Shown here piece after piece: positions 5,161 through 31,968 of a stretch of 37,236 nt of DNA. Under the pieces are notes generated by a model. It made no database searches, was not told the DNA's origin, and saw only the letters and a program-made list of their open reading frames with translations. Within the stretch, counting starts at the first letter, position 1; the number at the start of each line of letters is the position of its first letter. The DNA is from a virus, in the IMG/VR virus record IMGVR_UViG_3300033146_007131, positions 1 to 37,236 of that record, one strand, 5' to 3'. The position numbers and the translations under genes were made by a program.

Positions 5161-5562
5161 TTAATAAGTTAATAAAAGCTTATCTGTTATTTTATTTTTT
5201 ATTTTTTTGCCTTTATTTTGAAATCTTTTCAGCATTGACTTACCACAGCTGATATCTATTTTTTGTTTAAATATGCTTTGTTCTATATATTTATTATATT
5301 CATTATCTTTTTTACCATCTACGCTCAAAGCTATATATATGTTTTTTAGCTTACATTCCTGTATAACATTAATCAATTCTTCAATTTTAAAATTCGGAGA
5401 TCCATATAATATTGATTGTGAATTTTTATAGGGTGGATCACAATATATAAAATCATATGGTTTAGCGTTTAGCATTATATCTTTATAATCAGAGCATTTA
5501 AATATCGTATTTTGTATTTTTTTGTGCCACAAATCTACTCTTTGTGAAAAACTATTAGATGA
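5161..5562 (-). pseudogene. dam: Dam-type adenine methylase, C-terminal fragment
   Basis: This frame holds the second half of a class D12 (Dam/DpnM-like) N6-adenine methyltransferase. It starts in phase at SSNSFSQRVDLWHKKIQNT and contains the catalytic DPPY motif (D178-P-P-Y181 of the rebuilt protein), then an LSVDGKK segment and a basic tail. The first half is at 7380-7787. Joining the codon ending at 7380 to the codon starting at 5562 continues the frame without loss (136 + 133 residues), reading HKPI then SSNSF, as in family members. An ATG inside the IS end (12 nt upstream) could start a 137-residue fragment, but it would lack the AdoMet-binding motif I and be inactive alone. Confidence 0.88.
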
Positions 5563-5720
5563 CATCCTCTCCAAGCTAAAGCATAGGAGTTTCCTATACC
5601 ATTAGAGAAGTCTGACGAATTACTATAAAATAGCTATTCGTTTGGGTTGTGCCACGCAACCTCTATTCCTCAAACAAAGCAAAGCTTCGCTTTCTGGGTT
5701 TACTTTTCTTATTATATTTA
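5563..5720 (-). ncRNA. Probable omegaRNA (right-end guide RNA of TnpB), approximate limits
   Basis: In IS200/IS605 elements the RNA that guides TnpB is transcribed across the 3' end of tnpB and the right end, and its guide comes from the flanking DNA. Here that region covers the last codons of tnpB and the non-coding right end with its hairpin. The guide would read into dam from 5562 leftward (starting TCATCTAATAG). The 5' limit is an estimate; only the position and the hairpin support it. Confidence 0.45.
5583..5597. repeat. IS right-end subterminal hairpin
   Basis: ATAGGA (5583-5588), 3-nt loop, TCCTAT (5592-5597). It lies 20 nt inside the deduced right end, where Y1 transposases recognise a hairpin. 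Confidence 0.6.
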
Positions 5721-6846
5721 ATGCTCCATTTACATCTGCATTTAATATATAGCCTCTTGAATCTTTAAATAAACCTCGTCTTATCCTTCTACCTTTATAT
5801 TTAACTTGTTTATTTAAAGCCTCATTATTTAAAAAACTACATTTACTTGTATAACTTTCTTCTGTTACTTTTAGCTCTATTCCATATAATTCACTTAAAT
5901 ATTCTAATTTACTCTTTATCTTATGAAAAGGCAACTGTACAAAATTCTGATTATTTACTTTTCCTATTTTTATCTTATTTTTCCAAAACTCATTATAACC
6001 TAATACTATTTTTCCTATCTTGTTTTTTAAACAATGATTTATTACTATTCTTACTGCTTTGGAAATATAATCTTGTATTCTATTATTCCTTTTATGAGTT
6101 ATATATTGTATCTTTTTACTTTTTCCTTTTTTGATCTTTGATTTATATTTACTTACTTGTTTGTTATAATATTGGTTTATTGATTTTATTTTCCGTCCAT
6201 CTATAATAATAGATGACCCATTATTTTCTACACAAGTTAATAAATTATTTAAACCTAAATCTATTCCTAATATTTTTTCATTATCCAAACCTAACTCTAT
6301 TTTATCTTGAACTTCATATATATATTCTAATTCAAAATATAAACCATCCAATATTGGGTTCAATCTCACTTGCTTTATTTTTTTATCTAAAATTGTTTTT
6401 GGTATTTTTACTTCTAAACAAAATTTATTTTCTTTTTTATATTGTCTTGATAAAGGTAATTTAAATACTCCATTTTTAATACAACTACTATCTCTAAAAA
6501 TTAACTGGAATAAACCATTGATATCTTTATATTTTGGTAGCTTTACTTTTTTATCATATTGCCCTTTCTTCTTTTTTCTCTTTACTTCGAAAAAAGAAGA
6601 AAAATTATCATTTACTTTTTTTATTACTTGTTGAGCAATTCCAGCTTGCAAAAGTTTAAAATTTTCATTTGTTTTAGCTAAAGAACAATTATTAGCATAA
6701 GATAAAAATTGTTTATTATTAAAAAAATATTGTCTAACATTGTAAAGAGCAACATTATATAGGTTTTTAGAGAAGAAACAAAGTTCTTTAAGCTTTTTAT
6801 ATTGTTTTTTCTTTAATTTAAGTTGTTGTTTACAAGTAAGAATCAT
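5623..6846 (-). CDS. tnpB: TnpB, RNA-guided nuclease of the IS200/IS605 element
   Basis: TnpB of this family is an RNA-guided DNA endonuclease related to Cas12 that helps keep the element at its donor site. From the ATG at 6846 it has 407 residues. RuvC motifs: GIDLGLNN with D196 and NADVNGALN with D371. The second acidic residue is unclear: the usual place reads VLGYNEFWK (E286), while TEESYTSK offers E329/E330, as in a subgroup with a rearranged site. The zinc-finger region is reduced to SKCSFLNNE with one cysteine. I chose 6846 over 6891 because AAAGG precedes it and it follows the tnpA stop by 1 nt. The C-terminal RNRGCVAQPKR segment overlaps the guide RNA region. Confidence 0.92.
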   Translation of the reverse strand: MILTCKQQLKLKKKQYKKLKELCFFSKNLYNVALYNVRQYFFNNKQFLSYANNCSLAKTNENFKLLQAGIAQQVIKKVNDNFSSFFEVKRKKKKGQYDKKVKLPKYKDINGLFQLIFRDSSCIKNGVFKLPLSRQYKKENKFCLEVKIPKTILDKKIKQVRLNPILDGLYFELEYIYEVQDKIELGLDNEKILGIDLGLNNLLTCVENNGSSIIIDGRKIKSINQYYNKQVSKYKSKIKKGKSKKIQYITHKRNNRIQDYISKAVRIVINHCLKNKIGKIVLGYNEFWKNKIKIGKVNNQNFVQLPFHKIKSKLEYLSELYGIELKVTEESYTSKCSFLNNEALNKQVKYKGRRIRRGLFKDSRGYILNADVNGALNIIRKVNPESEALLCLRNRGCVAQPKRIAIL

Positions 6847-6847
6847 A

Positions 6848-7261
6848 TTATTTACCTTTTTGATTTTCAATATATTTTTTAACAGTTTCAAGAGAGACAG
6901 AACCGACTGATGAAATAAATCTAGCTCTAGTCCAAAGACAAGGTAGTTTTTTAGTAAGAGATGGGAATATTTCTCTCATTTTACGAGATGAGAAACCTTT
7001 AATCTTAGTAACAGTTTCATATATAGACACTTTAGGTGAATTAGAAATAAGAATATGAACATGATCTTCCATAACTTCAATTTCAATAAGTTTAAACTTA
7101 AATTTACCTTGTATAGATTTAATAATATGTTTAAGTTCATCTTGCATAATAGGATCTAAAACACTTCGTCTATATTTAGTAGTCCATATAACATGATATT
7201 GGCAAGAGAAAACGATATGTTTGTCTCGTTCATATATCTTGTGTGTATTAGTTATATTCAT
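6848..7261 (-). CDS. tnpA: TnpA, Y1 HUH transposase of the IS200/IS605 element
   Basis: This 137-residue single-strand transposase cuts and joins the hairpin-marked ends through a 5'-phosphotyrosine. It carries the HUH motif in MEDHVHILIS (H67, H69) and the catalytic tyrosine Y130 in VKKYIENQ. The FSCQYHVIWTTKYRR start and the full length are typical of the family. I chose the ATG at 7261 (MNITNTHK) because AAAGGATATAATA precedes it; the frame is open up to 7312. It overlaps nothing and is directly followed by tnpB. Confidence 0.95.
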   Translation of the reverse strand: MNITNTHKIYERDKHIVFSCQYHVIWTTKYRRSVLDPIMQDELKHIIKSIQGKFKFKLIEIEVMEDHVHILISNSPKVSIYETVTKIKGFSSRKMREIFPSLTKKLPCLWTRARFISSVGSVSLETVKKYIENQKGK

Positions 7262-7336
7262 TATTATATCCTTTCTTTGATATATATTATTATTTCTATA
7301 TAACGAAGTCAATTTAAAAAAAAATAAAAATTCATC

Positions 7337-7356
7337 CCATAGCCTTTAGGCTATGG
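7337..7356. repeat. IS left-end subterminal hairpin
   Basis: CCATAGCC (7337-7344), loop TTTA, GGCTATGG (7349-7356): a perfect 8-bp stem 23 nt inside the deduced left end. It is the expected recognition hairpin for TnpA. Confidence 0.75.
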
Positions 7357-7379
7357 CTTTCTTTTTATAATGCAAGTAA

Positions 7380-7787
7380 TATTGGTTTATGAACTCCACA
7401 TGGAGTTGACATATAATTATCTTTCTTTCTAAATCTAATTATACCTCCATAACATGAACGACATAAAAAAAGCAAATCTGCTGGATTTGGCTTTTGATTA
7501 TAAGAACTTTTAATTTGCTCATATGCTAATTGATTATTTGATAGAAATAAAAGATATCTATTGTTATACCATGTTTTTAGTTGTTCTGGGTTTATTTTAA
7601 GTTTATTCCATAACTGAATTAATGGCTCTAGTGTGTCAGATGCAATAGCTTTTTTAGGCTCTAATGAAGCTAATATTGCTCTACTACCAAGAAAAGGCTC
7701 ATAGTAGGTATTATATTTCTTAGGAAAATAAGAGATAATCTCTTTTGAAAATCGTTGTTTGTTACCTATCCATTTTAATAATTGCAC
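7380..7787 (-). pseudogene. dam: Dam-type adenine methylase, N-terminal fragment
   Basis: The first 136 codons of the split methylase: LLKWIGNKQRF at the start and the AdoMet-binding motif I YYEPFLGS (E30-S35), a YNQ...LLFLCRSCYGGIIRFR segment, then MSTPCGVHKPI. These are hallmarks of D12-class enzymes that methylate adenine, often in GATC. After I136 the frame runs four codons into the insertion sequence and stops at 7365. Without the DPPY half it cannot catalyse methyl transfer, although a two-piece enzyme is not strictly excluded. It starts 2 nt after the stop of the YpsA-like gene, so the original operon order was ypsA-like, dam, zinc ribbon. Confidence 0.9.
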
Positions 7788-9786: not shown

Positions 9787-10098
9787 TTATTTTTTTTTAG
9801 TTTTTTTCTTAGTTTTAGATTTTTTTTCGTTAAGAAATTCTTTGAATGATTTGCCTGATTTAAAGCCAACAACGGTTTTTGCTTTAATTTTTATAGTTTT
9901 TCCAGTTTGTGGATTTCTACCTTCACGAGCTTTTCTTTCTCGTTTAACGAAGCTTCCAAATCCAACTAGTTGAACCATATCATCACCTTTAACTCCATCC
10001 ATAATGCTTTGTATGGTAGCATTAAGACATTTTTCAACATCTGTCTTGGTGATTGAAGTTTTTTTCGCAATAGATTCTACTAATTCTTTTTTGTTCAT
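9787..10098 (-). CDS. HU-family DNA-binding protein
   Basis: A 103-residue HU/IHF-type architectural protein: MNKKELVESIAKKTSITKTDVEKCL dimerisation helices, LVGFGSFVKRERKAREGRNPQTG with the DNA-bending arm (GRNPQTGK), and VGFKSGKSFKEFLN at the end. It is slightly longer than the usual ~90 residues because of a lysine-rich tail (about 12 residues, mostly KSKTKKKTKKK), which may add non-specific DNA contacts. It bends and compacts DNA and often assists replication or recombination. AAGGATAAG lies before the ATG. A good minus-strand promoter lies at 10168-10195. Confidence 0.95.
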   Translation of the reverse strand: MNKKELVESIAKKTSITKTDVEKCLNATIQSIMDGVKGDDMVQLVGFGSFVKRERKAREGRNPQTGKTIKIKAKTVVGFKSGKSFKEFLNEKKSKTKKKTKKK

Positions 10099-10985: not shown

Positions 10986-12014
10986 ATGAGTAAAGATTTA
11001 TCAGGATCTTATAGTTTAAATGATCTTTTTAGTTCTTCAAATATGCAAGTCGTTTCAAAAGATCCAATTCAAGATAATAAAAAAGCTGAATTTATTAATA
11101 AAAATAATAGTACAATTAAAATACAGCAAAAAAGACGACAAAGATCAATAAACCAAACATTAAAAAAAGACTTAAAAAAAGCTAAAAATCCGATGAATAG
11201 TCATATACCACCTAGCTTATTTAAGTCAAAGCCTTTAAATATTAAGTTAGAAAAACGAGTAGTAGAAGAATCTACTACGGAGGTATTGCATCGTTTAGGA
11301 CAATTAACTGAAACAGCTCAAAAGATTGTGGCTAAAAAAATGTTAGATAATAAAATAGATTATACAAAGCCTTTGTCACGTCAAGTTATGTCAACCAAAC
11401 GAGCAAATAAGGATTTTGTTAATAAAAGACGACGTACGGTTGCTGAACTATTAAATTATGGAATGGTTGCTGCACAAATATCAGAAGCTCTTGATGTATC
11501 AATTTCGGCAATAAATAAAGATATACATGTTATTAGGCATGGTAAAAATAAAGAAGGAAAAGAAGTAGGTGATAGTATTTTGGCTTCATATGACAAAATG
11601 TTAGCTGATTTAACGGTTGAATATATTACTGCTGATGAGGCTTCTAAACCTAAGATTATTAATTCGAAAATGAGAACATTAGAGTCTAAATGGAAATATA
11701 TGTTAATTACAGGTATGATTAGAAAGAAAAAGGCTGGTGCTTTGATAGCAGGTAAAGATTTAGCTAAAATGTCTGCAACTGAATTAACAAATACACTGAA
11801 GAATATAAAAAAAGATACTGAAAATATACAAGTTGACAAAAAAAGATCTTCTCAAAGTGATTTAGATGTTCAGAATGGTGAAGTTAAAAGACTTTTTAAT
11901 AAACCAAAAGTTGAAATACCCAATTTCCTTTTAGAAAAAGATACAGATATTATTGAAGATATCGAAAGTATAGAGGCTGAAATTAAGGATCTTAATGATG
12001 TTGGGGTAAGTTAA
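10986..12014 (+). CDS. Probable terminase small subunit
   Basis: A 342-residue protein whose stop overlaps the large terminase start by one base (TAATG), the standard place for the DNA-recognition subunit. The first ~100 residues are charged and probably disordered. The centre carries a helix-turn-helix (RRTVAELLNYGMVAAQISEALDVSISAINKDI, about residues 143-175), followed by a helical oligomerisation-like region and an acidic C-terminal tail (DTDIIEDIESIEAEIKDLND). It is longer than the usual ~150-200 residues, mostly in the flexible ends. AGGAGAAG precedes the ATG. Assigned by HTH and gene order; no specific family recognised. Confidence 0.72.
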   Translation: MSKDLSGSYSLNDLFSSSNMQVVSKDPIQDNKKAEFINKNNSTIKIQQKRRQRSINQTLKKDLKKAKNPMNSHIPPSLFKSKPLNIKLEKRVVEESTTEVLHRLGQLTETAQKIVAKKMLDNKIDYTKPLSRQVMSTKRANKDFVNKRRRTVAELLNYGMVAAQISEALDVSISAINKDIHVIRHGKNKEGKEVGDSILASYDKMLADLTVEYITADEASKPKIINSKMRTLESKWKYMLITGMIRKKKAGALIAGKDLAKMSATELTNTLKNIKKDTENIQVDKKRSSQSDLDVQNGEVKRLFNKPKVEIPNFLLEKDTDIIEDIESIEAEIKDLNDVGVS

Positions 12015-14311
12015 TGGATAGTGATGAAATTGAAAAAAATCAACTAATTAATTTAATTAAAGTTCAGGATGAGTTAATGAGGCGTGAGGGATATACTGAT
12101 CCTTCTACGTTTGGTTTACCAGATTTGTTGTTTCCAATGAATACTTATCCAGCTACACTTGAGCGTTTAGATAATGGTCTTTATAAAAAAAATAAACGTA
12201 AATTGTTAGAAAAAGATGAAACTCGTGGCGAGTATCGTTACAGGAGATATCAAGAGTTAAAAAAGTTCCTTGAAAAAAAATTACATATTCAAAAGGATGG
12301 TAGAATTGAAAAGCTTAGAATTGTTGATCCTGTATTAGAGTTTTTAGGTGATATCTTTTTTGGATATATACGTAGAGCTATTTTATGGAAAAATAGAGGT
12401 GGTGGTGGTTCTCTTGCTGCTGCTATCGTGATGTGGCTAAGAATGGTATGGCAAAATCAAAGCTGGATGGATATGGCTGGTTGTTTGTTACCAAGCACAG
12501 AAGTATATATTAAAGAATTAAAAAATTATATTCCTGTAAGGTGTGTACAGGAAGGATATCATGTTTGGACTTTAACAGAAGAGTGGCGAAAAATAAAAAG
12601 AGTCATAAAAAGAAGTGGTGAATATATGGCTTATCAAATCAAGCCATTTGGCTCTATTATTAATACTTTTACAGAAGATCATTTAATTGCGGTTGTTAGC
12701 TGTCTTGAACGTGATTTTCAGGGCAATATCGTTAATGTTGATATTGAACATTGGGATTCATTGGATATTATATGGAAAGATGCTTGTTTGGTTAATCCAG
12801 ATATAGATACAGTTATAATTGGTAAATTAGATAAATTCCCTGGTAAGAAAATAAAATCTAATGGATGTGCTGGTAAAAATGGTAGATGGGATGGCAAGGA
12901 TAGAACTTATGTTTCAATTGCAATGTTTGATCACTTTGAATATGTTGGTGATGTTTACGATTTAACTGTTGATAGCGAGCCGTTCTTTCTTTGTCGCGAT
13001 ATGACAGTACATAATAGTCAAGAGCAGGCAAAACAGGTTTATGAGTATACTACTCAGTTCTGGGATTGTTTTCCTTTTATGAAGAAAACTCTTTTACCTA
13101 ATGATACTCAAGTTTCTTTAACTAAATTAATAACAGGTGTAACGTTAAGATGTGTTACTAGTACTGAGAAATCAGCGAGATCAAAACATCCACCTGGCTT
13201 ATGTATGGATGAAGTTTGTCAGGATAAAGAGGGAATAGATACAGTTTTCAGATCAGCAATGGGAGCTTCATTAACAGAGCCTAATTCAACAATTATTGCA
13301 CTTTCTACTTTCCATATACCAGTAGGTTTATTTCAAGAGATGTGGGATCATGCTGGCAAATTAGGATTTAGAAGATACACTTGGTCAACGTGGGATATTA
13401 TGGAGCATTGTTCTGAAGGTATGGATTGTGCTACTGATAAAGATCCATATGCTTATAGCTTTTGTTTAAAGTATTGTCCTTTAACAGAGCAAATAGATGA
13501 AGCTGTGCATTCACCTGATGGAATGATTACTAAAAGAAAATATATTGGATGTAGAGGTCAAGCAAGACATACTAATGGTTTCAGGAAAAGAGCAGTTGTC
13601 ATTGCTGCTAAAGCTGCAAGTGGTAAAAACTTTTTAGTTGAATGGGAAAACAGTAGACCAACAATACCTGGTTCAGTTTATGATATTAATGATGTTACTT
13701 ATGCTGAAAAAGCAGAATTTGAATTACCTGATAAAGATCCAATATTAGTTCATGTCGGTATTGACTGGGGATTTAATGAAGGCTGTATGTGTGTCATAAT
13801 GCTTTATGAAGAGGGTATTTTTATTCCAGAGGCAGAGTTTATGAACTTTAAGACTGTTTCTGAGTGTATTGTTATTCTTGAAAAATGGAGAAGTTATTAT
13901 ACTAATTATAATAAAGATGATAGCTTAGGTAAAGATATTTGTGTATATGCTGATGCATCTCATCCTTTTAATAATAATGATTTACATGAAGCTGGCTTTG
14001 AAACTGTTCCTGTAGATTTTGGTGGAGTAAAAGATTATGGGCTTTTTAATGTTGCAAAATATCTTGAAAATGGTCGTTTAAATATTAATGGTGATTTATA
14101 TAAATTTTTAAGACAAATTAAAGAATATAGAAATAATAAAAAAACAGGAAAACCTATTAAAAAAAATGACCATGCTCCTGATTCAATGCTGGCAGGCATG
14201 GTAGAGCTTGACTATGATGAACTTTTTGGACCTAATTCAAACATTAAATATATTCGAGAAAATGGTGATAAAAAACCTGATTCAAGTAACGATAAAGTAT
14301 TAATTTTTTAA
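12014..14311 (+). CDS. Terminase large subunit (ATPase-nuclease) with mini-intein
   Basis: The motor that pumps and cuts phage DNA. The precursor has 765 residues; removal of the intein (157-334) would give 587. ATPase: a Walker A-like NRGGGGSLAAA at 127-137 with G132 where lysine is expected, the DMAG/SQEQAK motif now split by the intein, and Walker B LCMDEV with D399/E400. Nuclease (RuvC-like): D584 in VGIDWGFNEG, D647 in YADASH and D719/D723 in NDHAPDSM. It overlaps the small terminase gene by one base. After its stop comes an A/T-rich stretch and a promoter. Assignment by motifs and order is firm; motor activity despite the altered Walker A is inferred. Confidence 0.92.
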   Translation: MDSDEIEKNQLINLIKVQDELMRREGYTDPSTFGLPDLLFPMNTYPATLERLDNGLYKKNKRKLLEKDETRGEYRYRRYQELKKFLEKKLHIQKDGRIEKLRIVDPVLEFLGDIFFGYIRRAILWKNRGGGGSLAAAIVMWLRMVWQNQSWMDMAGCLLPSTEVYIKELKNYIPVRCVQEGYHVWTLTEEWRKIKRVIKRSGEYMAYQIKPFGSIINTFTEDHLIAVVSCLERDFQGNIVNVDIEHWDSLDIIWKDACLVNPDIDTVIIGKLDKFPGKKIKSNGCAGKNGRWDGKDRTYVSIAMFDHFEYVGDVYDLTVDSEPFFLCRDMTVHNSQEQAKQVYEYTTQFWDCFPFMKKTLLPNDTQVSLTKLITGVTLRCVTSTEKSARSKHPPGLCMDEVCQDKEGIDTVFRSAMGASLTEPNSTIIALSTFHIPVGLFQEMWDHAGKLGFRRYTWSTWDIMEHCSEGMDCATDKDPYAYSFCLKYCPLTEQIDEAVHSPDGMITKRKYIGCRGQARHTNGFRKRAVVIAAKAASGKNFLVEWENSRPTIPGSVYDINDVTYAEKAEFELPDKDPILVHVGIDWGFNEGCMCVIMLYEEGIFIPEAEFMNFKTVSECIVILEKWRSYYTNYNKDDSLGKDICVYADASHPFNNNDLHEAGFETVPVDFGGVKDYGLFNVAKYLENGRLNINGDLYKFLRQIKEYRNNKKTGKPIKKNDHAPDSMLAGMVELDYDELFGPNSNIKYIRENGDKKPDSSNDKVLIF
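12482..13015 (+). mobile_element. Mini-intein inside the large terminase
   Basis: A 178-residue protein intron. It begins at Cys157 (CLLPSTEVYI, block A), has a block B TxxH (TEDHLIAV), a block F-like VYDLTVDSEPFFL and ends TVHN with the next residue Ser335 (block G, penultimate His, Asn334, +1 Ser). All residues for the standard splicing pathway are present. It is too short for a homing endonuclease; the middle shows no LAGLIDADG or HNH motif. The exteins rejoin as DMAG-SQEQA, a conserved terminase segment. Confidence 0.93.
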
Positions 14312-14726: not shown

Positions 14727-14744
14727 TTATTGATAAGGTTAAAT

Positions 14745-16349
14745 ATGGCAAAAGAATTGGAGCAACAACTTGTTGATGAAGTTCCTTTAATAATTGATGG
14801 ATATTCTGGAGAAGCTTCTAATGAGGATGTTGTTGCTGGCATAACAAGTGTTATGATTAAGCAATTAGATCCTGTACATCTTGAACAATCAAAAAGAGCA
14901 AATGGATTGTTTGGACATGAGAAGGTCGTTCCATTGCCATATGATAAACTTGCACTTGCATTTTTAGCAGAAAAGAATACAAGGTTATCAAAATGCATAG
15001 AGTATAGAGCTAGATTAACAGTTGGAATAGATTGGTCTCTTGAAACTAGTAATAAGTATCTTGAACTTATTTCTGAAGTTCAACGTAAGTCTGATAAAAG
15101 AAGAGTGGATGAAGATTTCTTGGCGTTAAAGTTATTATTTTCTCGTCCAAATAATGAAGAACCTTTCCCTGAGATTTGTTATAAGGCAAAATATGATCAA
15201 GAAACTCATGGTGATGGTTATATTGAAATTGTAAGAAATCAGCTTGGTGAAGCAAAAAAAATGCATCATGTGTCTGGTCATACCATTAGAAGACTTTATG
15301 AAGATGGTTTATATGTTCAAGTAAGAGGTAATAATAAAGTCTATTATAAAAGTTTTGGTGATCCACGTTTTTTCTCATCAACTGATGGTACAGAAAAAGC
15401 TTATGATTTTAATGACAATGCTAGTGAGTTATTACAATTCTCTATTTATTCACCTCGTTCATCTTGGTATGGTGTTCCTAGATGGATACCTGCTATAGCT
15501 GCAATATGTGGAGGTAGATTAGCTGCTGAACGTAATATTGCTTTTTTTGAAAATGATGCAGTGGGTAGAATGGCAATTGTTGTTAATGGTGGAAAATTAG
15601 ATGCACCTTCTGTTGAAAAAATTGAAGGTTTTATGAAAAGGGGTCATAAAGGGACTCAAAATGCACATCGAATACTTGTTCTGCAAGCTGATGCTAAAAA
15701 AACAGTAGGAACAAAAGGAACTGATACAAGTATAACTGTAGTGCCTTTGACTGTTGGTGTTACTGACGATGCAAGTTTTCAGGCATATAGAAAATTAAAT
15801 GATGAAGAAGTTAGAGAATCAATGGGTATTTCCGTTCCATTTTTCTCTGCTACAAATGTAAATAAAGCTTCTGCATATCATCTTCGAAAAATGACTAATG
15901 AACAAGAGTTTGAGCCTGATGCTAAGAGTTATGAGTATAAATGGGATTTATCTGTTTTATCTGAACGAACATTAGGTAAAAGATGGGATATTAATCCAAT
16001 TTCTCTTAAATTTAAAAAACCTACTCAAATAGATGAGTTAGATTTATCTACAATCTTGACTGATTATTCAAAACATGGTATTCTAACAATTAATGAATGC
16101 AGAATAAGAATGGGAGCAAAACCATTACCTGCTGATATTAAGTGGGGTGATTTACCTTTTGCATTTGCTGTAAAGTTTTTTGAAAATGAGTATAGCCTTC
16201 AACCAGAAGAAAAAAAAACTCAAGATGTTATAGATAAGATAAAATCAAAACCTGGTACAGAGGTGATTGTAATTGATAAAGATGATGACAGTAATGATGT
16301 TATGAAAAAAATAGAAAAACAGATTTATGGTTTAGCGAGTGCATCCTAA
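14745..16349 (+). CDS. Portal protein (HK97-like)
   Basis: The dodecameric ring at the capsid vertex through which DNA passes and to which the neck attaches. Features of HK97/PBSX-type portals: LSKCIEYRARLTVGIDWSLE near the start, ELLQFSIYSPRSSWYGVPRWIPAIAAI, the AERNIAFFENDAVGRMAIVV stem region, and the LNDEEVRESMGISVPFFSATNVNKASAYHLRKM helix segment near residues 355-395. I chose the ATG at 14745 (MAKELEQQ), preceded by AAGG; a TTG at 14730 would add five residues. 534 residues is normal. Its stop overlaps the next start (TAATG), suggesting coupling to the protease fusion. Confidence 0.9.
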   Translation: MAKELEQQLVDEVPLIIDGYSGEASNEDVVAGITSVMIKQLDPVHLEQSKRANGLFGHEKVVPLPYDKLALAFLAEKNTRLSKCIEYRARLTVGIDWSLETSNKYLELISEVQRKSDKRRVDEDFLALKLLFSRPNNEEPFPEICYKAKYDQETHGDGYIEIVRNQLGEAKKMHHVSGHTIRRLYEDGLYVQVRGNNKVYYKSFGDPRFFSSTDGTEKAYDFNDNASELLQFSIYSPRSSWYGVPRWIPAIAAICGGRLAAERNIAFFENDAVGRMAIVVNGGKLDAPSVEKIEGFMKRGHKGTQNAHRILVLQADAKKTVGTKGTDTSITVVPLTVGVTDDASFQAYRKLNDEEVRESMGISVPFFSATNVNKASAYHLRKMTNEQEFEPDAKSYEYKWDLSVLSERTLGKRWDINPISLKFKKPTQIDELDLSTILTDYSKHGILTINECRIRMGAKPLPADIKWGDLPFAFAVKFFENEYSLQPEEKKTQDVIDKIKSKPGTEVIVIDKDDDSNDVMKKIEKQIYGLASAS

Positions 16350-19300
16350 TGTTAAAAAAAGATACAGATATAACTTTTAAAATTGATTTTGATATAATTG
16401 AAAAAAGCTTAGAACAAAAATTAGAATTTCATGCTCCAGCATATATTGTAAGTAGTCTTGATGAAATTAGTAAGTCTCAGAATGTTGATATTGCTTTGTG
16501 TGACTTTAATTCTTATCAAACCAATGCATTACATCTAATAGCTAAAAGTATACAAGAATCATTAAATGTTAATATTAATTTTATTGACACAGATAATTGT
16601 CAATATGACACATTTTATCATTCGATAAGTAATTTTAATAAATCTAATATAATTATCAAAGAAATGAAAAATCCTGATAAACTATATTTAACTACTCCAG
16701 AGATGAAACAACCGTTAGAATATACAATACAAGTTCATTTTGATGGAGTTAATGCACACACTGATTTTCGTTATAAGATATCTAAAAAAACACTTGGTGG
16801 CTGGTCTTTTAATAATTTGAAGCCAGGTGCAATACAAGAACCAGTAAATAATTTAAAGATAGCTAAAAAATATTTGAAAGATTTTTCTCTTGAAGGAAAT
16901 CAATATTTTGAACCTTTATTGCAACCTAAAAATATAATATCTAAAGCATTAAAAGAACATGATAAAAATTGGTTTAATATTGATGAATTGGAAATAAAAA
17001 TAGATAATGGTGGGGAATCTGAAAAGGGTAATAAATATATTATTACTATCGAAAAAGGTCTTGTTGATATAGGAATGCAATTACCTTATTTTCATGAATA
17101 TTTTCTTATTGGTGATAAATTTTCAGGTCAATTACGTTTAAAGTCTATAGAAAGTGATGGACGAGAAATAGAGGGGCAAGTACCTATTAAAAAAGGTGAT
17201 ATTTTTTGGATAAGTAATTTTTCAAAAACCATAAAACCTTATTTATTAACTAAAAGGTCTATTACTAAAAAGGCTATGCCTTTACCTGATAGTTCTGGTA
17301 TACCATATTCAATACATAAAGATATTCCAAAAGAATATAAATATTGGAAAGAATCAGACAAAAAAAGATCTTTTGACATGAGAAAACAACTTATAGAATC
17401 TAAACTTATACAAGATGATTCCATTCGAAATGTTGATAAGAAATATAGGCTTGTACATAAAAAACTTTTTTTGGGAGCTGATTTATCTTTATTGGCAAAA
17501 GATTGTTTTACCAGTTTTGAGTTTAAACAACAGAACTGGCTTAATAATGATGGTGATATAAGAAGAAACGCTTGGTATCTGTCTTTTAAGAATATTGATC
17601 TTCCTTCTGTTTGTATCTCTAATTATACCAACATTGACTCTCTTGATAAAATCTCTATTATAGAAACTGAAAATGATTTATTTGGAATTGAAGGTGATAT
17701 AGATCCTAATAGTAAGTATAATACTTCAAAATCAATGTTATCTAATATTAACAATATTGATTCTGGAAATGTTGAAATTATATGTAAAAATAAAAACAGT
17801 TTTGATATAGATTTTAGCGGTACAAAGCTTATAGGTAAATATCATTTTTCCAGAGAAGAACCTAATTCTAAATATTGGTTAATGTCAAAAAATATTCCAG
17901 AAAAAGAGAAATCTGCTTATGAAGTAGTAAAGTCTGATAATAACATTGAATGTATTAACTGTATAGGGTATGAACTTGAAGAAAAGGATTTAAGGCCTTT
18001 TACTCTGTTTTCCCCTGCTGATATATCACAATCATCCAAAAGTCTTACTGAAATAGCTGAACAATATTCTAAAAATCCTTATAAATCTATTGGATATACT
18101 GTTCAAAGAATAGAAAAGGGTTTGCGTTGTGTTGTGCAAGGTAAGGATAATAAATTTTTAGCTTATCATGTTAATAGTGAGGATTTATATTTTCTTAAAA
18201 TTAATGAAAATATCAAAAAGGAATTACTTGTTTTAAACGATAAAATAGGTGATTTTGTTTTGGATTGTAATCTCGTTTTTAATGATGATAAAATTGAGCA
18301 TGAAGATATTTTGAAGGGATTAGATACCTTTTTAGATAACAATGATTATCATTTTTCTGTTTTACATATTATATATAGTTCGACGTTAAATATTAAAAAA
18401 TCTTTAGATAAATTTTCTGTAAATGATCTTTTGAACAATACAACATATTTTTCTATGCCTACAATTAATTCTTTTTCAGATATTAATATCTTTAAAAAGG
18501 TTATTAAAGGCTTAAAGGACAACAGATATAATAATGATTTTCTTTTAAAACCTAAAAACAATGCTTATAGTGAAAATAATATTGATTCATGGCAAGTGTT
18601 TAAAGAATATAGAACAATTAATTGCATTGTTTTAGATAAAAAAAAACCTGATGGACGACAAAAAACTAACACTTATTCTTTTGGTTTGGCTGTGAGTTCA
18701 GGAGTTAATTATCCAAAAGATAAATTGGTAACATTAGGTAAATCATTATATGTAAAAGCGTTTGTAGGCATTAAAAGTGAAGATACATTTGATATTAGTA
18801 ATAAAGTTTCTATTTCTTTTAAAAGTGCTAAATGCCTTATTCGAAAAGGTATTTTTATTGATTCGAGTATTAAACAAAATGGTCTTGAGTTATCTAGCGT
18901 TAAATCTATTTCTTTCTTTGATGATTTTGTTTCAAAACTTAATCCAAATGAAGTAGAAATAGAAAAATTAGATTTAGATTATATATCTATTTGTAAAGGA
19001 ATAGAAGAACGTTATATACTTGGTATTGTTTTAGAACCTGATATAGTAGATGGTCAAAATGAAGTTGTCTCTAAACAGGAAATTCGTCAAGCTTGTTTTA
19101 GTTTTATGGAGAATTATAAAAAGCTTGGAGTCTATCATACTGAAGAAAATAAAGGTAGATTAGCCATTTTAGAGAATTTTTTAGCTCCTGTAACTTTTAC
19201 ACTTGGCGAAAGAGAAGTTGTTGAAGGTACATGGTTGATGGGTATTAGGGTTATGGATGATTCTTTGTGGTCTAAAATCAAGAATGGCGATATTACTGGT

Positions 19301-19369
19301 CTTTCTATATTTGGTCGCTCACGAAGAGTTGCAAATAAAAAAACAACTATTAAGATAAGAAAAGTTTAA
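16349..19369 (+). CDS. XkdF-type prohead protease fused to a DNA-ligase-like N-terminal region
   Basis: The last ~120 residues match XkdF-like (S78_2) capsid maturation proteases: RYILGIVLEPDIVDGQNEVVS (889-908), H930 in LGVYHTEE, ILENFLAPVTFTLG, GTWLMGIRVMDD and S986 in DITGLSIFG, the probable catalytic Ser. The other ~840 residues resemble an ATP-dependent DNA ligase. Residues 124-303 look like a LigD phosphoesterase domain (YTIQVHFDG, then AHTDFRYKI, GLVDIGMQLPYFHEYF). A second, weaker copy spans about 365-513. A nucleotidyltransferase-like part (about 583-740: VQRIEKGLRCVV, FVLDCNLVFND) and an OB-like part (about 747-832) follow. The ligase lysine is missing from its motif, so ligation is unlikely. 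The start overlaps the portal stop. The fusion is unusually long for a protease gene. Confidence 0.78.
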   Translation: MLKKDTDITFKIDFDIIEKSLEQKLEFHAPAYIVSSLDEISKSQNVDIALCDFNSYQTNALHLIAKSIQESLNVNINFIDTDNCQYDTFYHSISNFNKSNIIIKEMKNPDKLYLTTPEMKQPLEYTIQVHFDGVNAHTDFRYKISKKTLGGWSFNNLKPGAIQEPVNNLKIAKKYLKDFSLEGNQYFEPLLQPKNIISKALKEHDKNWFNIDELEIKIDNGGESEKGNKYIITIEKGLVDIGMQLPYFHEYFLIGDKFSGQLRLKSIESDGREIEGQVPIKKGDIFWISNFSKTIKPYLLTKRSITKKAMPLPDSSGIPYSIHKDIPKEYKYWKESDKKRSFDMRKQLIESKLIQDDSIRNVDKKYRLVHKKLFLGADLSLLAKDCFTSFEFKQQNWLNNDGDIRRNAWYLSFKNIDLPSVCISNYTNIDSLDKISIIETENDLFGIEGDIDPNSKYNTSKSMLSNINNIDSGNVEIICKNKNSFDIDFSGTKLIGKYHFSREEPNSKYWLMSKNIPEKEKSAYEVVKSDNNIECINCIGYELEEKDLRPFTLFSPADISQSSKSLTEIAEQYSKNPYKSIGYTVQRIEKGLRCVVQGKDNKFLAYHVNSEDLYFLKINENIKKELLVLNDKIGDFVLDCNLVFNDDKIEHEDILKGLDTFLDNNDYHFSVLHIIYSSTLNIKKSLDKFSVNDLLNNTTYFSMPTINSFSDINIFKKVIKGLKDNRYNNDFLLKPKNNAYSENNIDSWQVFKEYRTINCIVLDKKKPDGRQKTNTYSFGLAVSSGVNYPKDKLVTLGKSLYVKAFVGIKSEDTFDISNKVSISFKSAKCLIRKGIFIDSSIKQNGLELSSVKSISFFDDFVSKLNPNEVEIEKLDLDYISICKGIEERYILGIVLEPDIVDGQNEVVSKQEIRQACFSFMENYKKLGVYHTEENKGRLAILENFLAPVTFTLGEREVVEGTWLMGIRVMDDSLWSKIKNGDITGLSIFGRSRRVANKKTTIKIRKV

Positions 19370-19371
19370 AT

Positions 19372-20955
19372 ATGACAAAACTTAAATTAACACCTGCACA
19401 AAGACGTTTATTAAATAAGCGTAGAAAATCAGGAGTTGTTCGATTACAAGATCTTGAGGTTGCAAAAGTTGATCTTGTTGGAACACCAGCTAATCTCCAA
19501 AATTTTTTAATTGTTAAAAACTTTCAGTCTGGGGGAAAGATTATGCCACATGATATTGTGGAACTTATAGAAAATTCAGATGGTTCTTTAGCCTCAATTG
19601 TAAAATCTCAAGAATCTAATAGTACTTTATCAGATGAAATCAGTAAAACAGTAGATGTAGATGATACCAATAGTATTGTTAATGATACTCTTATTGATTC
19701 TGATAGTAATGTTGATAATAATGATAATTTATCAGAAAATAATGTTGATGTTAAAGTTGATGAACCAAATGTTGATGTTAAAACAGATGAGTCAAATGTT
19801 GATGACAATGTTAATTCTGGTATAGAAGATAAAGATAGTACAAATGCTTCTGTTGTGGAAATAGATACAGAAAATAATATTAAGGAAGTTGATACTGAGA
19901 ATACCGAACCTCTTAATGAGATACAAAAAGAGATAAGTGTTAAGAATCCAGTATCAAAAGAGTTAAAAAATGTTGTTTTATCTTTTTTAGATACTTTATT
20001 AATGGAAGTAAGCGGTCTTTTATATTGGTTAAATCGCATGAATGATGGCGATGATGTTATAAAGTATGTAAAAGCAAAAGAAATAATGTCATCTAGTCTA
20101 GTAAAAATGTCAAGTGCATTGTTTAATGTTGCTGAGGATTTAAAAAAACCTAGAGCAATGAAATCTTTTGTTGAAGACATGTTCTCTTTAAGTCCAGTTA
20201 TAAAAATGGAAGATTCATTACGAGTTGAACTTACTCTTGTATTAAAAAAGTCACTACATATTTTTAGAAATATGTTTGTATCAATAGCAAGTCTTCCAGA
20301 AAGTTGTACAGGTAGAGAGTTCCTTTTATCTGAATTAGCAATTAATTCTTTGTTAGATATTGCTGTTGACTTTCAAACTGTTGCAAAAAAATGTTCTAAG
20401 TCTGATGATGAAGAGTCTATGAAATCTTTAGAATTAGATGAAAAGGAGAAAAAAGTGGAAAAAATGAAAAAAGAAGAAATCATTAAGTTTCTTGAAGGTA
20501 ATGAGTTTTCAGATGTTCAGCTTGATGAAATGCGTGGTATTTTTTCACCAATGCTGGAGAGTGCTAAAACAATGGCAACTGGAAATGATGCTGAAAAAGA
20601 AGCTGATGTTGCAAAAGAAAATATAACAACTGAAGACACTGATGTTTCAACTGAAACAAATACTGATGAAGATCCAATTTTAAAGGCTTTAGCTGAAATA
20701 AAAAATGGACAAATAGAAATCACTGATAAGTTTACATTACAAGAAAAAACTACTAGTGAGATATCTAAAAAATTTGAGACTTTAAGTTCTCAGTTTGTAA
20801 CTACACAAAAAGAGGTGGGGTCACTTAAAGATCTTGTTGGTCAAATAGGCGGTAAAACTCCTACTTCTAAAAGCCTTAAAGGTCAGGAACTTGACACTCC
20901 TGAAGCTAAAGATAAAAACACTTTTGATGGTGTTTTCTTTCATACTTTGAAATAG
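19372..20955 (+). CDS. Probable scaffolding-type protein, 527 residues
   Basis: It begins with a basic stretch, then VRLQDLEVAKVDLVGTPANLQNFLIVK, a segment like that found near XkdF-type proteases and head scaffolds (LxEVSLVDxPAN pattern). Residues ~60-190 are extremely acidic and low complexity (repeats of NVDVKxDE). The middle is helical (~200-345), and the C-terminal half has coiled-coil stretches (DEKEKKVEKMKKEEIIKFLE; EKTTSEISKKFETLSSQFVT). Between protease and capsid, with acidic and coiled-coil parts, it fits an internal scaffold removed by the protease. No family recognised with certainty. It begins 2 nt after the protease stop. Confidence 0.6.
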   Translation: MTKLKLTPAQRRLLNKRRKSGVVRLQDLEVAKVDLVGTPANLQNFLIVKNFQSGGKIMPHDIVELIENSDGSLASIVKSQESNSTLSDEISKTVDVDDTNSIVNDTLIDSDSNVDNNDNLSENNVDVKVDEPNVDVKTDESNVDDNVNSGIEDKDSTNASVVEIDTENNIKEVDTENTEPLNEIQKEISVKNPVSKELKNVVLSFLDTLLMEVSGLLYWLNRMNDGDDVIKYVKAKEIMSSSLVKMSSALFNVAEDLKKPRAMKSFVEDMFSLSPVIKMEDSLRVELTLVLKKSLHIFRNMFVSIASLPESCTGREFLLSELAINSLLDIAVDFQTVAKKCSKSDDEESMKSLELDEKEKKVEKMKKEEIIKFLEGNEFSDVQLDEMRGIFSPMLESAKTMATGNDAEKEADVAKENITTEDTDVSTETNTDEDPILKALAEIKNGQIEITDKFTLQEKTTSEISKKFETLSSQFVTTQKEVGSLKDLVGQIGGKTPTSKSLKGQELDTPEAKDKNTFDGVFFHTLK

Positions 20956-21034
20956 TTTTGTTTTTATTTTAGCAATAATTTTTATTGCACTTAATATTAC
21001 TTATTTGTCCAATATAAGATATAAGGAAAAAAAT

Positions 21035-22327
21035 ATGGAAAATAAAGAACTTGTATCCAAGAACTTCTCAACCCAGGCATTACTTAATGGAGGAGAACTT
21101 CTACCAGACCAAAATGATAAACTTACAGTACTTGTTGCTGATCAATCTATTCTTTTGAAAAAAGTTCATTTTGTAAAAATGAAACAATCAAAACAAAGAG
21201 TTGATAAGCTTCATATTTCTGAACCAGTAACAGAAGCAGCGTTTGAAGATACACCACTACCTTCTAATGTAGTTGGTAAATTCAATTTCATAGAGCTTTC
21301 TGCTGAAAAAGTAAGATCATCTTGGCATATTACTCATGAATTTCTTCGAGACAATATTGAGCAGGCTGGTGCTGAAGATACATTAATGTCTACAATCACA
21401 ACTCGAATGGCAACTGATTTTGAGATGCTTTTTATTCAAGGTGATACTACTGCTCCAAATACAACCCATGAAGGTAGATTGCTTAGAACTTTTGATGGAA
21501 TAGATAAACTAACACAAGATTCACACCTTGTTGACGTTAGAGGTCAATCAATAGTTTTAGACCATTTTGCTAGAGCTGCAAGAGCGATGCCATCTAAATA
21601 TAAAAATGATCCAGGTCTTAAATGGATTATATCTGATGTTATTGTTAATGATTGGGTTAATACTTTAGCTACAAGAGCAACAGCACTTGGTGATAGAGCT
21701 GTATCAGGTTTTTCATCTGCACCTCTTGGAAAAGAATTTGTAGTTGTAAACTTAATCCCATCTGATAAACCAATTAATCTTGAAACTGGTATACCTGCTG
21801 AAGTAGTTGGTAATCTTAATGGACCTTTTGAGATTGTTACAGGAATAAATGACACTCTTGTTGTTACAATTAATGCTCTACCTGCTAGAACTCTTGTAAT
21901 ACCTGCTGGTACACTTGAGACAGTTAGAATAGCTAACCTGCTTAATGGTTTATTTGCAGTTACAAATGACCCTGCATATGCTTATGATGATGGCCTTGGA
22001 AGACTAGCAATAAGAACAGACGATGCGGCTGTTACAGCTATTATTACAATAGGTGCAAGTAACTCATTAACTACATTAGGTTTGACTGCTGGTGTGTTTA
22101 CAGGTCAAGATACTGGTAATGCTGGAATACTTAGAGAAGGTTCTTTTATGCTTTACTGTAACCCAAAAAATTTAGTTTTTGGAATGGTACAGAATGCTAG
22201 AGTTTATTCTGAGTATAACAAAAATAATGATAGACTTGAGACTACTATTTATAGTGAGCTTGCAGCTAATGTAGAGAATGTTGATGCTATAGTTAAGGTT
22301 GTTAATCTTCGAAGAAAACCTCTATAA
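21035..22327 (+). CDS. Major capsid protein (HK97 fold) with inserted beta domain
   Basis: The shell subunit. The N-terminal arm, a VRSSWHITHEFLRDNIEQAG spine-type helix region, DFEMLFIQGD and the C-terminal REGSFMLYCNPKNLVFGM...VKVVNLRRKPL follow HK97-type capsids. Residues ~264-358 form an insertion (TLVVTINALPARTLVIPAG, ITIGASNSLTTLGLTAG) resembling small beta domains seen in flagellar and phage surface proteins, probably exposed on the capsid. I chose the ATG at 21035 because ATAAGGAAAA precedes it; a TTG at 21005 would add ten residues. 430 residues. A hairpin terminator follows at 22390. Confidence 0.88.
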   Translation: MENKELVSKNFSTQALLNGGELLPDQNDKLTVLVADQSILLKKVHFVKMKQSKQRVDKLHISEPVTEAAFEDTPLPSNVVGKFNFIELSAEKVRSSWHITHEFLRDNIEQAGAEDTLMSTITTRMATDFEMLFIQGDTTAPNTTHEGRLLRTFDGIDKLTQDSHLVDVRGQSIVLDHFARAARAMPSKYKNDPGLKWIISDVIVNDWVNTLATRATALGDRAVSGFSSAPLGKEFVVVNLIPSDKPINLETGIPAEVVGNLNGPFEIVTGINDTLVVTINALPARTLVIPAGTLETVRIANLLNGLFAVTNDPAYAYDDGLGRLAIRTDDAAVTAIITIGASNSLTTLGLTAGVFTGQDTGNAGILREGSFMLYCNPKNLVFGMVQNARVYSEYNKNNDRLETTIYSELAANVENVDAIVKVVNLRRKPL

Positions 22328-29914: not shown

Positions 29915-30505
29915 ATGGCAGGAACAGATTTAAAAGGCGGAAGACCCGATATTTTACGTGGATTTAGATATAATGTATCTATTACACCTGAAGGTGAAAA
30001 ATCTATTGGGACTTTAGGGTTTTCAAAAGTATCAGGGTTAAACTTGGGAACCTCGGATGTAATTGAATATAGAGAAGGTAACGAGCGTGTATCACCTCGA
30101 AAAATACCAGGTTTAAATAAATTTGATAATATAACTCTTGAACAGGGTAGGGCTTTAAGCGACACAGGAACAGCATTAGCTGATTGGCGAGCAGCAGTTG
30201 TGTGGGCTGAAGGTGGCAAAGGCGGTTTTTCGCCAGATGGTAAAAGATTCGGACTACAATATTTTGATTATAAAAATTATCGTGCTTCAATGAGAATACA
30301 GCTCATTAATAGAAATGGAAAACCATCTGTTGAATGGCAAATAGATAAAGCATGGCCAATATCTTTAAAGTTTTCAGATTTAGATGGAAATACTTCTGAT
30401 GTATTGATTCAAACTTTAGAGATTGCAACTGAAGGTATTCAAGAAGTTGTTGGTTATACGCGGACTTCTTCAGAAGCAACTTCAGGAAGTGCAATTACAA
30501 AATGA
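29915..30505 (+). CDS. Tail tube protein (T4 gp19-like), paralogue 1
   Basis: Inner tube subunit of the contractile tail. It carries the family core ILRGFRYNVSI, FSKVSGLNLGTSDVIEYREG, PRKIPGLNKFDNITLEQG and ends with WPISLKFSDLDGNTSDVLIQ and LEIATEGI. At 196 residues it is close to normal. The most standard of the four copies and next to the sheath, so it is the likely main tube protein. Its start depends on the hairpin at 29871-29903. It shares about 100 nt of near-identical sequence with the copy at 31969. Confidence 0.92.
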   Translation: MAGTDLKGGRPDILRGFRYNVSITPEGEKSIGTLGFSKVSGLNLGTSDVIEYREGNERVSPRKIPGLNKFDNITLEQGRALSDTGTALADWRAAVVWAEGGKGGFSPDGKRFGLQYFDYKNYRASMRIQLINRNGKPSVEWQIDKAWPISLKFSDLDGNTSDVLIQTLEIATEGIQEVVGYTRTSSEATSGSAITK

Positions 30506-30540
30506 TTTCTATTGTTAATAAAATCATATTATGATAAAAT

Positions 30541-30561
30541 CCACTACCTTTATGGTAGTGG
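30541..30561. repeat. Small hairpin CCACTACC-TTTAT-GGTAGTGG
   Basis: An 8-bp stem with a 5-nt loop between tube paralogues 1 and 2, followed by AAAATTT rather than a T-run. It matches the hairpin at 3653-3669 in stem core and loop. It may protect the tube mRNA 3' end or reduce readthrough into paralogue 2. Confidence 0.6.
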
Positions 30562-30628
30562 AAAATTTAATATTAGCGTAATAGAGGTTTGGTTATAAAA
30601 ATTTTTAAATTTAGGTTTTATATATTTT

Positions 30629-31372
30629 ATGATTTTACGTAAACATGATATATCCAGAGCATATAAATTTAGAGTTTTAATTCCTAGAAGTAGTTATGAT
30701 GATACTTTTTATGATAGTGAAGCAGCAGAAGGTAGACATAAAGCTATTAATAAAGGTATAGATTCATATGCTAACAATATGATGTCAAGTGATAGATGGT
30801 CAAGATTTTCAGAAAGAGAAAAAAGAAATTTTAGAATAATAGTTAAAAATATGCGTTCACGAGCTTGGAGAAATTCAGATGAAGGGGAAAGAATAGCTTC
30901 AAATACTTATGATATAGGTTTCTCAAAGGTTTCTGGATTAACAACTGGTCAATGTGATATTATGACATATAGGAATGGCTATGATAAACTTGATTATCAT
31001 AAAGAACCTGGTTTAGTAAAAGTAAAAAATATAATACTTGAAAGAGGTTTTGCAGTTCAAGATGCTTTTGAATTTATGTTTGCTTGGCATCGTCATACAA
31101 TGTTTAATATGGATGAAAAATTAGATATAGGTGAACAGGTAAAGAGGCCACAAGATGTTGGTTATAATCCTGATTTTGAAGATAATGACAGTACTTATTT
31201 TATGAGAAATATACGAATATCATTATATGACAGATTAGGTAGAACTAAAACTTCTTGGTCTTTATCTAATGTATGGCCAATAGAATTAGAATTTTCAGAT
31301 TTAGATTCTATGGATTCTAAAGTAATAATAGAACGAATGGTTTTATCGGTGCATGGTATAGATATTAATTGA
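30629..31372 (+). CDS. Tail tube-family protein, paralogue 2 with N-terminal insertion
   Basis: Belongs to the gp19-like family by ISRAYKFRVLI, YDIGFSKVSGLTTGQCDIMT, YHKEPGLVKVKNIILERG and WPIELEFSDLD. At 247 residues it is longer because a charged ~80-residue insert (about 16-95: SSYDDTFYDSEAAEGRHKAI, REKRNFRIIVKNMRSRAWR) lies in the first loop. It is the most diverged copy. Such variants may sit at a tube end or contact the baseplate. The ribosome site is weak (TTTAGG about 14 nt upstream), suggesting low output. Confidence 0.82.
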   Translation: MILRKHDISRAYKFRVLIPRSSYDDTFYDSEAAEGRHKAINKGIDSYANNMMSSDRWSRFSEREKRNFRIIVKNMRSRAWRNSDEGERIASNTYDIGFSKVSGLTTGQCDIMTYRNGYDKLDYHKEPGLVKVKNIILERGFAVQDAFEFMFAWHRHTMFNMDEKLDIGEQVKRPQDVGYNPDFEDNDSTYFMRNIRISLYDRLGRTKTSWSLSNVWPIELEFSDLDSMDSKVIIERMVLSVHGIDIN

Positions 31373-31380
31373 GGTAACTA

Positions 31381-31887
31381 ATGGCAAAAGGTATTGATAT
31401 TTTACGAGCATTTAAATATAGAGTAACGATAGTTGAAACAAAAGGTAGTAATAGTAGCATATTGGGTTTTTCAAAGATATCAGGTTTGACTCTTGGGGCT
31501 TCGGATGTGATTGAATATAGAGAAGGTAATGAAGGTCCTTTTTTTCGAAAACTTCCTGGTTTACATAAGTATAAGAATGTTATATTGGAAAAAGGAAAAG
31601 GAAGTGATGCAGATATCCTTGAAATGGAAAGATGGAGAGATCAAGTTTCTTATTATAGATCAAATATAAAAGTAACAGATAAGGATGGATATGGGACTGT
31701 TTATTATTATAAGACTATCAATATTGCATTATATTCTAGGTCTGGAGATATTAAATTTGAATGGGTATTACATAATGCTTGGCCTACAAGTATTGATTAT
31801 AGTGATCTTGATGCTCAAACATCATCATTTTTAATAGAAACAATAGATATTGCATATGAAGGTGTTGAGATAATCCGTCATAAGTAA
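31381..31887 (+). CDS. Tail tube-family protein, paralogue 3
   Basis: A 168-residue gp19-like protein: ILRAFKYRVTI, LGFSKISGLTLGASDVIEYR, RKLPGLHKYKNVILEKG, AWPTSIDYSDLD. It lacks insertions. It starts 8 nt after paralogue 2 with GAGG at good spacing, so these two are co-translated. Probably an initiator, cap or baseplate-adaptor ring rather than the bulk tube, by analogy to systems with several tube proteins. Confidence 0.85.
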   Translation: MAKGIDILRAFKYRVTIVETKGSNSSILGFSKISGLTLGASDVIEYREGNEGPFFRKLPGLHKYKNVILEKGKGSDADILEMERWRDQVSYYRSNIKVTDKDGYGTVYYYKTINIALYSRSGDIKFEWVLHNAWPTSIDYSDLDAQTSSFLIETIDIAYEGVEIIRHK

Positions 31888-31968
31888 AAATTTTTTCTAT
31901 TAAAATTGATATATTATTAATTTTTTGTTATTATATTTGAAATAAAACGATTTTAACAAGGGAAAATT

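Follow-up and report, generated by a model that had tools for sequence, protein, structure and literature searches.

Bacteria mend and rejoin broken DNA with LigD-type enzymes. In LigD of bacteria and archaea, a 3'-phosphoesterase (PE) domain is joined to an ATP-dependent ligase in the order POL-PE-LIG, and stand-alone LigD PE proteins are also known (TIGR02777, PF13298; structures 3p43, 3p4h and 3n9b). In the Pseudomonas LigD PE, the Mn ligands His42, His48 and Asp50 are essential (PMC8656161). XkdF (Peptidase_S78_2, PF14550) is a prohead protease, and the gene of the maturation protease is usually found between the portal and major capsid genes (PMC7302621). A third point of reference is given by the phage polyvalent proteins, in which many enzymatic domains are combined in one chain (Iyer et al. 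2017, PMC5512222). For those with a C-terminal assemblin-like peptidase, packaging into the virion and injection have been predicted in that paper. Two single proteins must also be considered, namely the ligase of ANMV-1 (AJP62006.1, KP703175.1), a virus of an uncultured archaeon, and the XkdF protein of Rhizobium phage RHph_TM16, annotated as 'DNA methyltransferase/prohead protease'.

The window, i.e. the whole stretch of 37,236 nucleotides from the IMG/VR virus record IMGVR_UViG_3300033146_007131, encodes a single protein of 1006 residues that brings these systems together. It shares with LigD the PE fold, the Mn site of pattern QxH...HxDxR and the joining of PE to an ATP-dependent ligase, with relatives that carry a nucleotidyltransferase (NTase) in front. 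It differs from LigD in belonging to a viral family in which neither an AEP-type polymerase (Pfam matches) nor Ku (30 records, fragments or of uncertain completeness) was found, in the tandem arrangement of two or three PEs, in the family-specific PYFHEYF motif, in the loss of the His84 and Tyr88 equivalents, in the C-terminal capsid protease and in the dead ligase of the window itself. With XkdF proteins it shares the domain, the conserved His and Ser and the portal-capsid position, but the protease is only the last eighth of a long chain with end-repair domains. Virion-gene neighbours and a C-terminal peptidase are features in common with the polyvalent proteins, and, like them, the fusion carries several unrelated enzymatic domains per chain among virion genes; a text search of PMC5512222 found neither DNA ligase nor LigD PE among the domains described there. 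The ANMV-1 ligase is homologous to residues 113-518 (PE1-PE2) and is encoded directly after the portal gene, but has the order NTase-ligase-PE-PE, an intact ligase motif and no XkdF in the chain. The RHph_TM16 protein is alike in portal-capsid position and in its DNA-modifying annotation, whereas XkdF proteins of its type have no ligase or PE. The features of the fusion and its neighbours are as follows.

14730..16349, + strand: portal gene, directly 5' of the fusion gene (Pfam Phage_portal, E 1.6e-22; PHROG portal, E 2.7e-38)
16349..19369, + strand: fusion gene, 1006 aa, a single ORF with no internal stop
16349..16684 (aa 1-112), + strand: N-terminal region with no detectable family, of low AF2 confidence
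16697..17278 (aa 117-310), + strand: PE1, a LigD-type 3'-phosphoesterase domain (profile and fold matches)
17513..17890 (aa 389-514), + strand: PE2, the second PE copy (profile matches), its metal site lost in the window
17990..18643 (aa 548-765), + strand: degenerate ATP-dependent DNA ligase core (profile, hhalign, alignment, AF2, Foldseek)
18644..18988 (aa 766-880), + strand: OB-like or linker stretch, aligning with the OB part of relatives
19004..19330 (aa 886-994), + strand: XkdF (Peptidase_S78_2) prohead protease (Pfam PF14550)
19372..20955, + strand: acidic 527-aa protein, a putative scaffold from its position and make-up (ORF sequence)
21005..22327, + strand: probable major capsid protein (PHROG 1623 'virion structural protein', E 2.6e-59)

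The ATG of the fusion gene shares 1 nt with the last base of the portal ORF and, lying between portal and capsid genes, the fusion occupies the normal slot of a maturation protease (PMC7302621). The product of 19372..20955 matched no family in Pfam or PHROG searches; homologs of the capsid candidate were found 3' of the fusion in eight relatives. Downstream of the capsid gene, tail sheath and tail-tube-like genes can be read from the sequences, together with a tape measure protein with PHROG support, so that the window (29% G+C) is a fragment of a contractile-tailed virus.

Other features of the window deserve mention in their own right. The terminase large subunit gene (12014-14311, +) apparently contains a small intein (Pfam Intein_splicing, E 3e-4, aa 195-334; junction ...TVHN|SQEQ), with the terminase profile resuming at 334. 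As read from the sequence, an IS200/IS605 pair (TnpA-like, 6848-7312; TnpB-like, 5623-6891; both on the - strand) splits a D12/Dam-type adenine methyltransferase at 5161-7787 (-) into an N half (7365-7787) and a C half with DPPY (5161-5574), and D12 methyltransferases are also fused to, or adjoin, the ligase cassette in L002 and L012, two of the related loci described below. Four tandem homologous tail-tube-type genes, which match one another in homology search, follow the sheath gene at 29915-32493 (+), and the sequence alone suggests an HU-like DNA-binding protein gene at 9787-10098 (-).

In Pfam searches the protease is the only part of the fusion to be matched: PF14550 covers aa 886-994 (E 1.7e-23, 83.4 bits against a cut-off of 24), in agreement with the C-terminal XkdF-type protease proposed in an earlier note made from the letters alone, and is matched once in the window record. 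H930 and S986 are invariant in an alignment of the nine fused proteins, and a structural model based on 49 sequences led Foldseek to XkdF proteins from other phages, among them that of Colwellia phage 9A (E 6.5e-7). At the opposite end, aa 1-112 occupy the position where relatives carry a pol-beta-like nucleotidyltransferase. Such a domain looked plausible by eye in the window too, but its profile scored 0.0 bits, below many shuffles, and it is therefore not claimed.

Outside the protease, the sole match of the fusion in a tblastn search of 50,697 phage records was that of aa 113-518 to the ANMV-1 protein (E 2e-14), which has a good ligase domain. The alignment of the window with ANMV-1, used as a PE profile, led to 45 IMG/VR loci; single-sequence searches of IMG/VR yielded no relatives, and the PE alignment alone recovered them. 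A second profile scan of IMG/VR returned almost the same contigs, indicating that the PYFHEYF pattern is exhausted there. The loci include near-copies (L004/L005, L006-L009, L013/L015/L017/L024, L012/L016 and L032/L034), so that independent lineages are fewer than 45. Among 37 scanned proteins, Pfam found LigD_N in 17, DNA_ligase_A_M in 14 and XkdF (PF14550, same chain) in 11, and the NCBIfam LigD_PE model matches 20.

In the window taken by itself, single-family HMMs miss the PE, NCBIfam LigD_PE giving E 0.13 at 445-515, within PE2. The profile of 25 relatives, instead, matches the solved LigD PE structures through two separate stretches (3p43, 4.8e-7; 3p4h, 4.8e-6; 3n9b, weaker, 0.021), and Foldseek with an earlier AF2 model found 3p43 (E 5e-5, TM 0.74 to target). 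With the ANMV-1 match, these results bear out the LigD-type PE that had been noticed at YTIQVHFDG and PYFHEYF. PE1 of the window reads QVHFDGVNAHTDFR and retains Q128, H130, H137, D139 and R141, the equivalents of Gln40, His42, His48, Asp50 and Arg52, a metal motif kept in the window and in all complete relatives. The family motif PYFHEYF lies at aa 246-252, with W208 and HEYF (249-252) invariant in 37 sequences. The equivalents of the phosphate-binding His84 and Tyr88 are kept nowhere in the PE family, the stretch aligned with 3p43 being NWFNI, so that PE activity is not certain. The invariant Trp208 stands near the position of Tyr88 of LigD PE, and HEYF may border an alternative pocket.

The weaker second PE copy suggested earlier corresponds to PE2; it is degenerate in the window and has the full motif in L012, L014 and L022. 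Our own HMMs gave two tandem PE copies, and three in L019-L046. A single PE split in two was considered and rejected, given the complete QxH...HxDxR in the second copy of those three loci and the third copy in L019-L045. Given that the PE1 metal residues are retained and that most relatives keep the ligase lysine, an enzymatic role is no less likely than a structural one.

The ligase core was assessed with a profile of six intact relatives, the window being left out when it was built. This profile recognises archaeal and human DNA ligases (4eq5, E 3.5e-18) and scores 32.4 bits on the window stretch versus 3.7 for the best of 300 shuffles; hhalign of the ligase profile against the window gave 95.8% (E 7e-9). 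Chance motif matches are ruled out by these statistics and by conservation among the relatives, and the ligase-like core that had been read around FVLDCNLV is accordingly established, with AF2 and Foldseek in accord. Its catalytic residues are gone: in the column-by-column alignment, motif I reads VQRIEKGLR in the window versus V(E/Q)xK(Y/F)(N/D)G(F/M)R in relatives, the lysine (present in 26/26 relatives aligned there) being replaced by I588, as the reading IEKGLR had already implied; motif III has Asn for Glu (FVLDCNLV versus FILDxE), and motif IV NND instead of SEG. L010 has lost the ligase core up to motif IV. Motif I is KxNG in L002, L003, L005, L006, L007, L009 and L011 and KxDG in all other members; the former may weaken the ligase of the PE-ligase-XkdF clade.

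The nine PE-ligase-XkdF fusions cluster together in the PE1-PE2 tree (95/88). The PE region of the window evolves fast, with an end branch of 2.28 versus a median of 0.45, and a branch of this length is placed with less certainty. Since most of the nine-member fusion clade keep the catalytic lysine, and since the fusions group together with the window on a very long end branch, the ligase decay in the window is best read as secondary. At most, the ligase remnant in the window would be a DNA-binding or structural module.

From 9 sequences AF2 gave a poor model (pLDDT 53); from 49 sequences it reached a mean pLDDT of 71, with PE1 at ~93, PE2 at ~88, XkdF at ~85 and the ligase core (560-765) mostly at 70-93; the first 110 residues and 770-880 were poorly predicted. 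Foldseek with this model found DNA ligases at 5e-9. Of the folds expected for residues 100-840 by the earlier note, PE and ligase were thus recovered but not the OB end, the stretch 770-880 having pLDDT mostly <50. The viral fold matches include proteins of the A0A516 series, which may be further ligase/XkdF proteins.

The relatives also allow the cassette as a whole to be described, using our own HMMs run on all ORFs of the loci; these were iterated on a small set, so that weak matches are suggestive only. Nearly all 45 loci have a ligase, two or three PEs and, if the contig is long enough, an XkdF-type protease, in one protein or among nearby same-strand head genes. The order PE-PE-ligase-XkdF is found in the window, L002, L003, L005-L009 and L011, and in L010 without most of the ligase; ligase-PE-PE-XkdF in L023 and L037; ANMV-1, L014, L018, L022 and L038 have a ligase-PE fusion in which no protease is clearly recognisable; and in L012-L017 and L024 the parts are consecutive separate genes, the ligase itself being split over two. 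In L019-L045 the arrangement is looser, with a weaker protease match (1e-3 to 1e-14) that in some loci is missing or several genes away. Of 19 records in which a ligase was matched, 18 have just one strong match, and it falls within the cassette. The recurrence of the PE-PE-ligase-XkdF order on contigs from different metagenomes shows that the fusion is real, and excludes an assembly artefact joining two genes, which the earlier note had named as a possible flaw. The near-identical L004 and L005 differ in that XkdF is in a separate overlapping ORF (988 + 161 aa) in the former and part of one 1141-aa ORF in the latter, a frameshift at the ligase/protease boundary that may be a sequencing error or programmed. 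Beyond what had been noticed in the window, there is thus a conserved cassette, whose members mostly keep the ligase lysine, and an intact set of PE1 metal residues in the window.

The portal and capsid genes that flank the cassette on either side are of several unrelated types, with major head protein genes 3' of it in L012, L021, L036 and L045 and portal genes 5' of it in L018, L022 and L037. Archaeal links are provided by ANMV-1 and by scaffolds binned as Archaeoglobales and Thermoprotei, the Archaeoglobales scaffold apparently being the same contig as L034. Most fused relatives have, before PE or ligase, a LVGGLxNxGxTxxDIDxL domain with invariant G...DxD, whose best PDB matches are weak and to pol-beta-superfamily nucleotidyltransferases (E 0.07-0.5), with weak agreement from Pfam; by analogy, NTase-PE-ligase would be a functional analogue of LigD POL-PE-LIG. 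Single relatives carry D12 methyltransferase, metallo-beta-lactamase, PNK3P or 2'-5' RNA ligase domains. Inteins, which usually sit at conserved active sites, are present at cassette motifs: at ligase motif I in L035 (5' ORF; VHN|CQKKYDG), between the two PE1 metal motifs in L027 (VHN|SVHIDFR) and at PE1 QKPYFHEYF in L041.

The reading that we prefer, with a probability of about 0.45, is that of a polyprotein of LigD-type end-healing enzymes and a prohead protease that is packaged, cleaves itself and is delivered with the genome, sealing having been lost in the window. The two PEs and the ATP-dependent ligase, joined in many relatives by a pol-beta-like nucleotidyltransferase, would form a virion polyprotein through their covalent link to the protease. 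The enzymes would enter the capsid because the protease is, as proposed, recruited into the prohead core; there it would cut the chain, itself included, and free them beside the packaged DNA. They would then travel into the next host to clean and seal ends or nicks of the incoming genome, the expected chemistry, by analogy with LigD, being the removal of 3' phosphates or ribonucleotides followed by sealing. In the window virus the sealing step would be lost, there being no catalytic lysine; PE1 could still act, with the host ligase sealing, and 3' cleaning as the sole remaining step is plausible for the window protein. The simplest mechanism would be the one used by other cargo fused to head proteins, and the polyvalent proteins with a C-terminal peptidase offer a precedent (PMC5512222). 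That the cassette keeps company with the head protease whatever the type of portal and capsid points to the particle. Many relatives have the ligase in a chain that lacks the protease, so that fusion could account for packaging in part of the family only. The presence of the combination in roughly 45 further viral contigs suggests that the virions of this group contain enzymes for DNA-end repair.

A more specific version, which we put forward tentatively and consider on the whole unlikely, is that NTase, PE and ligase constitute a virion-borne, Ku-independent end-joining polyprotein which, cleaved in the head by the capsid protease, joins the genome ends at entry. No Ku was found in 30 records, all of them fragments or of uncertain completeness, and no AEP polymerase domain was among the Pfam matches of the window and scanned relatives. 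Such a system would occur in head-tailed viruses that infect archaea and, probably, bacteria; the window would represent a lineage that discards the ligase step.

Alternatively, the enzymes could be tethered to the prohead to mend nicks, gaps and blocked 3' ends around packaging, and be destroyed or expelled at maturation. Packaging motors stall at damaged DNA, and a ligase and 3' end cleaner at the portal would aid a stalled motor; the gene order beside portal and head genes agrees with this. However, fusion to the protease would be unneeded, and every locus encodes its portal as a protein of its own; the proposal is improbable. Somewhat harder to sustain is the earlier note's idea of a ligase scaffold turned prohead component, read here as a ligase/PE fold that serves as internal scaffold or protease delta-domain and is cleaved off, its catalysis being irrelevant: the dead ligase and PE2 of the window, the fast evolution of its PE region and the absence of most of the ligase core from L010 would all fit, but the window keeps its PE1 metal residues, the relatives retain the ligase Lys, SEG and PE motifs, and a separate scaffold-like gene comes next (19372-20955), so that this is quite unlikely for the whole protein and possible for the dead ligase alone. 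Last, an injected effector that mends RNA or DNA cut by host defences (restriction or tRNA-cleaving systems, for instance) would be in line with the action of LigD PE on 3'-ribonucleotide ends (PMC8656161), with the D12 methyltransferase, PNK3P and 2'-5' RNA ligase family members that join the cassette and with the polyvalent-protein precedent (PMC5512222). It is very improbable; by profile the ligase comes closest to enzymes that join DNA (4eq5, E 3.5e-18), and no defence context was seen.

The individual folds, and multi-domain virion proteins with a C-terminal peptidase (PMC5512222), are known. Full-text literature searches (open-licence PMC) found no description of a head protease that carries a ligase or a LigD PE in its chain, and there is a fair chance that the fusion is more than a variant on the polyvalent-protein theme. 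It joins two fields that are unlinked in the searched literature, namely DNA end-joining enzymes and capsid maturation, and adds a divergent PE family that is new and whose invariant HEYF motif is unexplained. The members with an intact ligase, a KxNG ligase, a dead ligase and a deleted ligase provide a natural series for testing each step. If the enzymes are packaged, the particles of some viruses contain a kit for healing DNA ends, which, if true, would account for the sealing of injected linear genomes in hosts that lack suitable enzymes.
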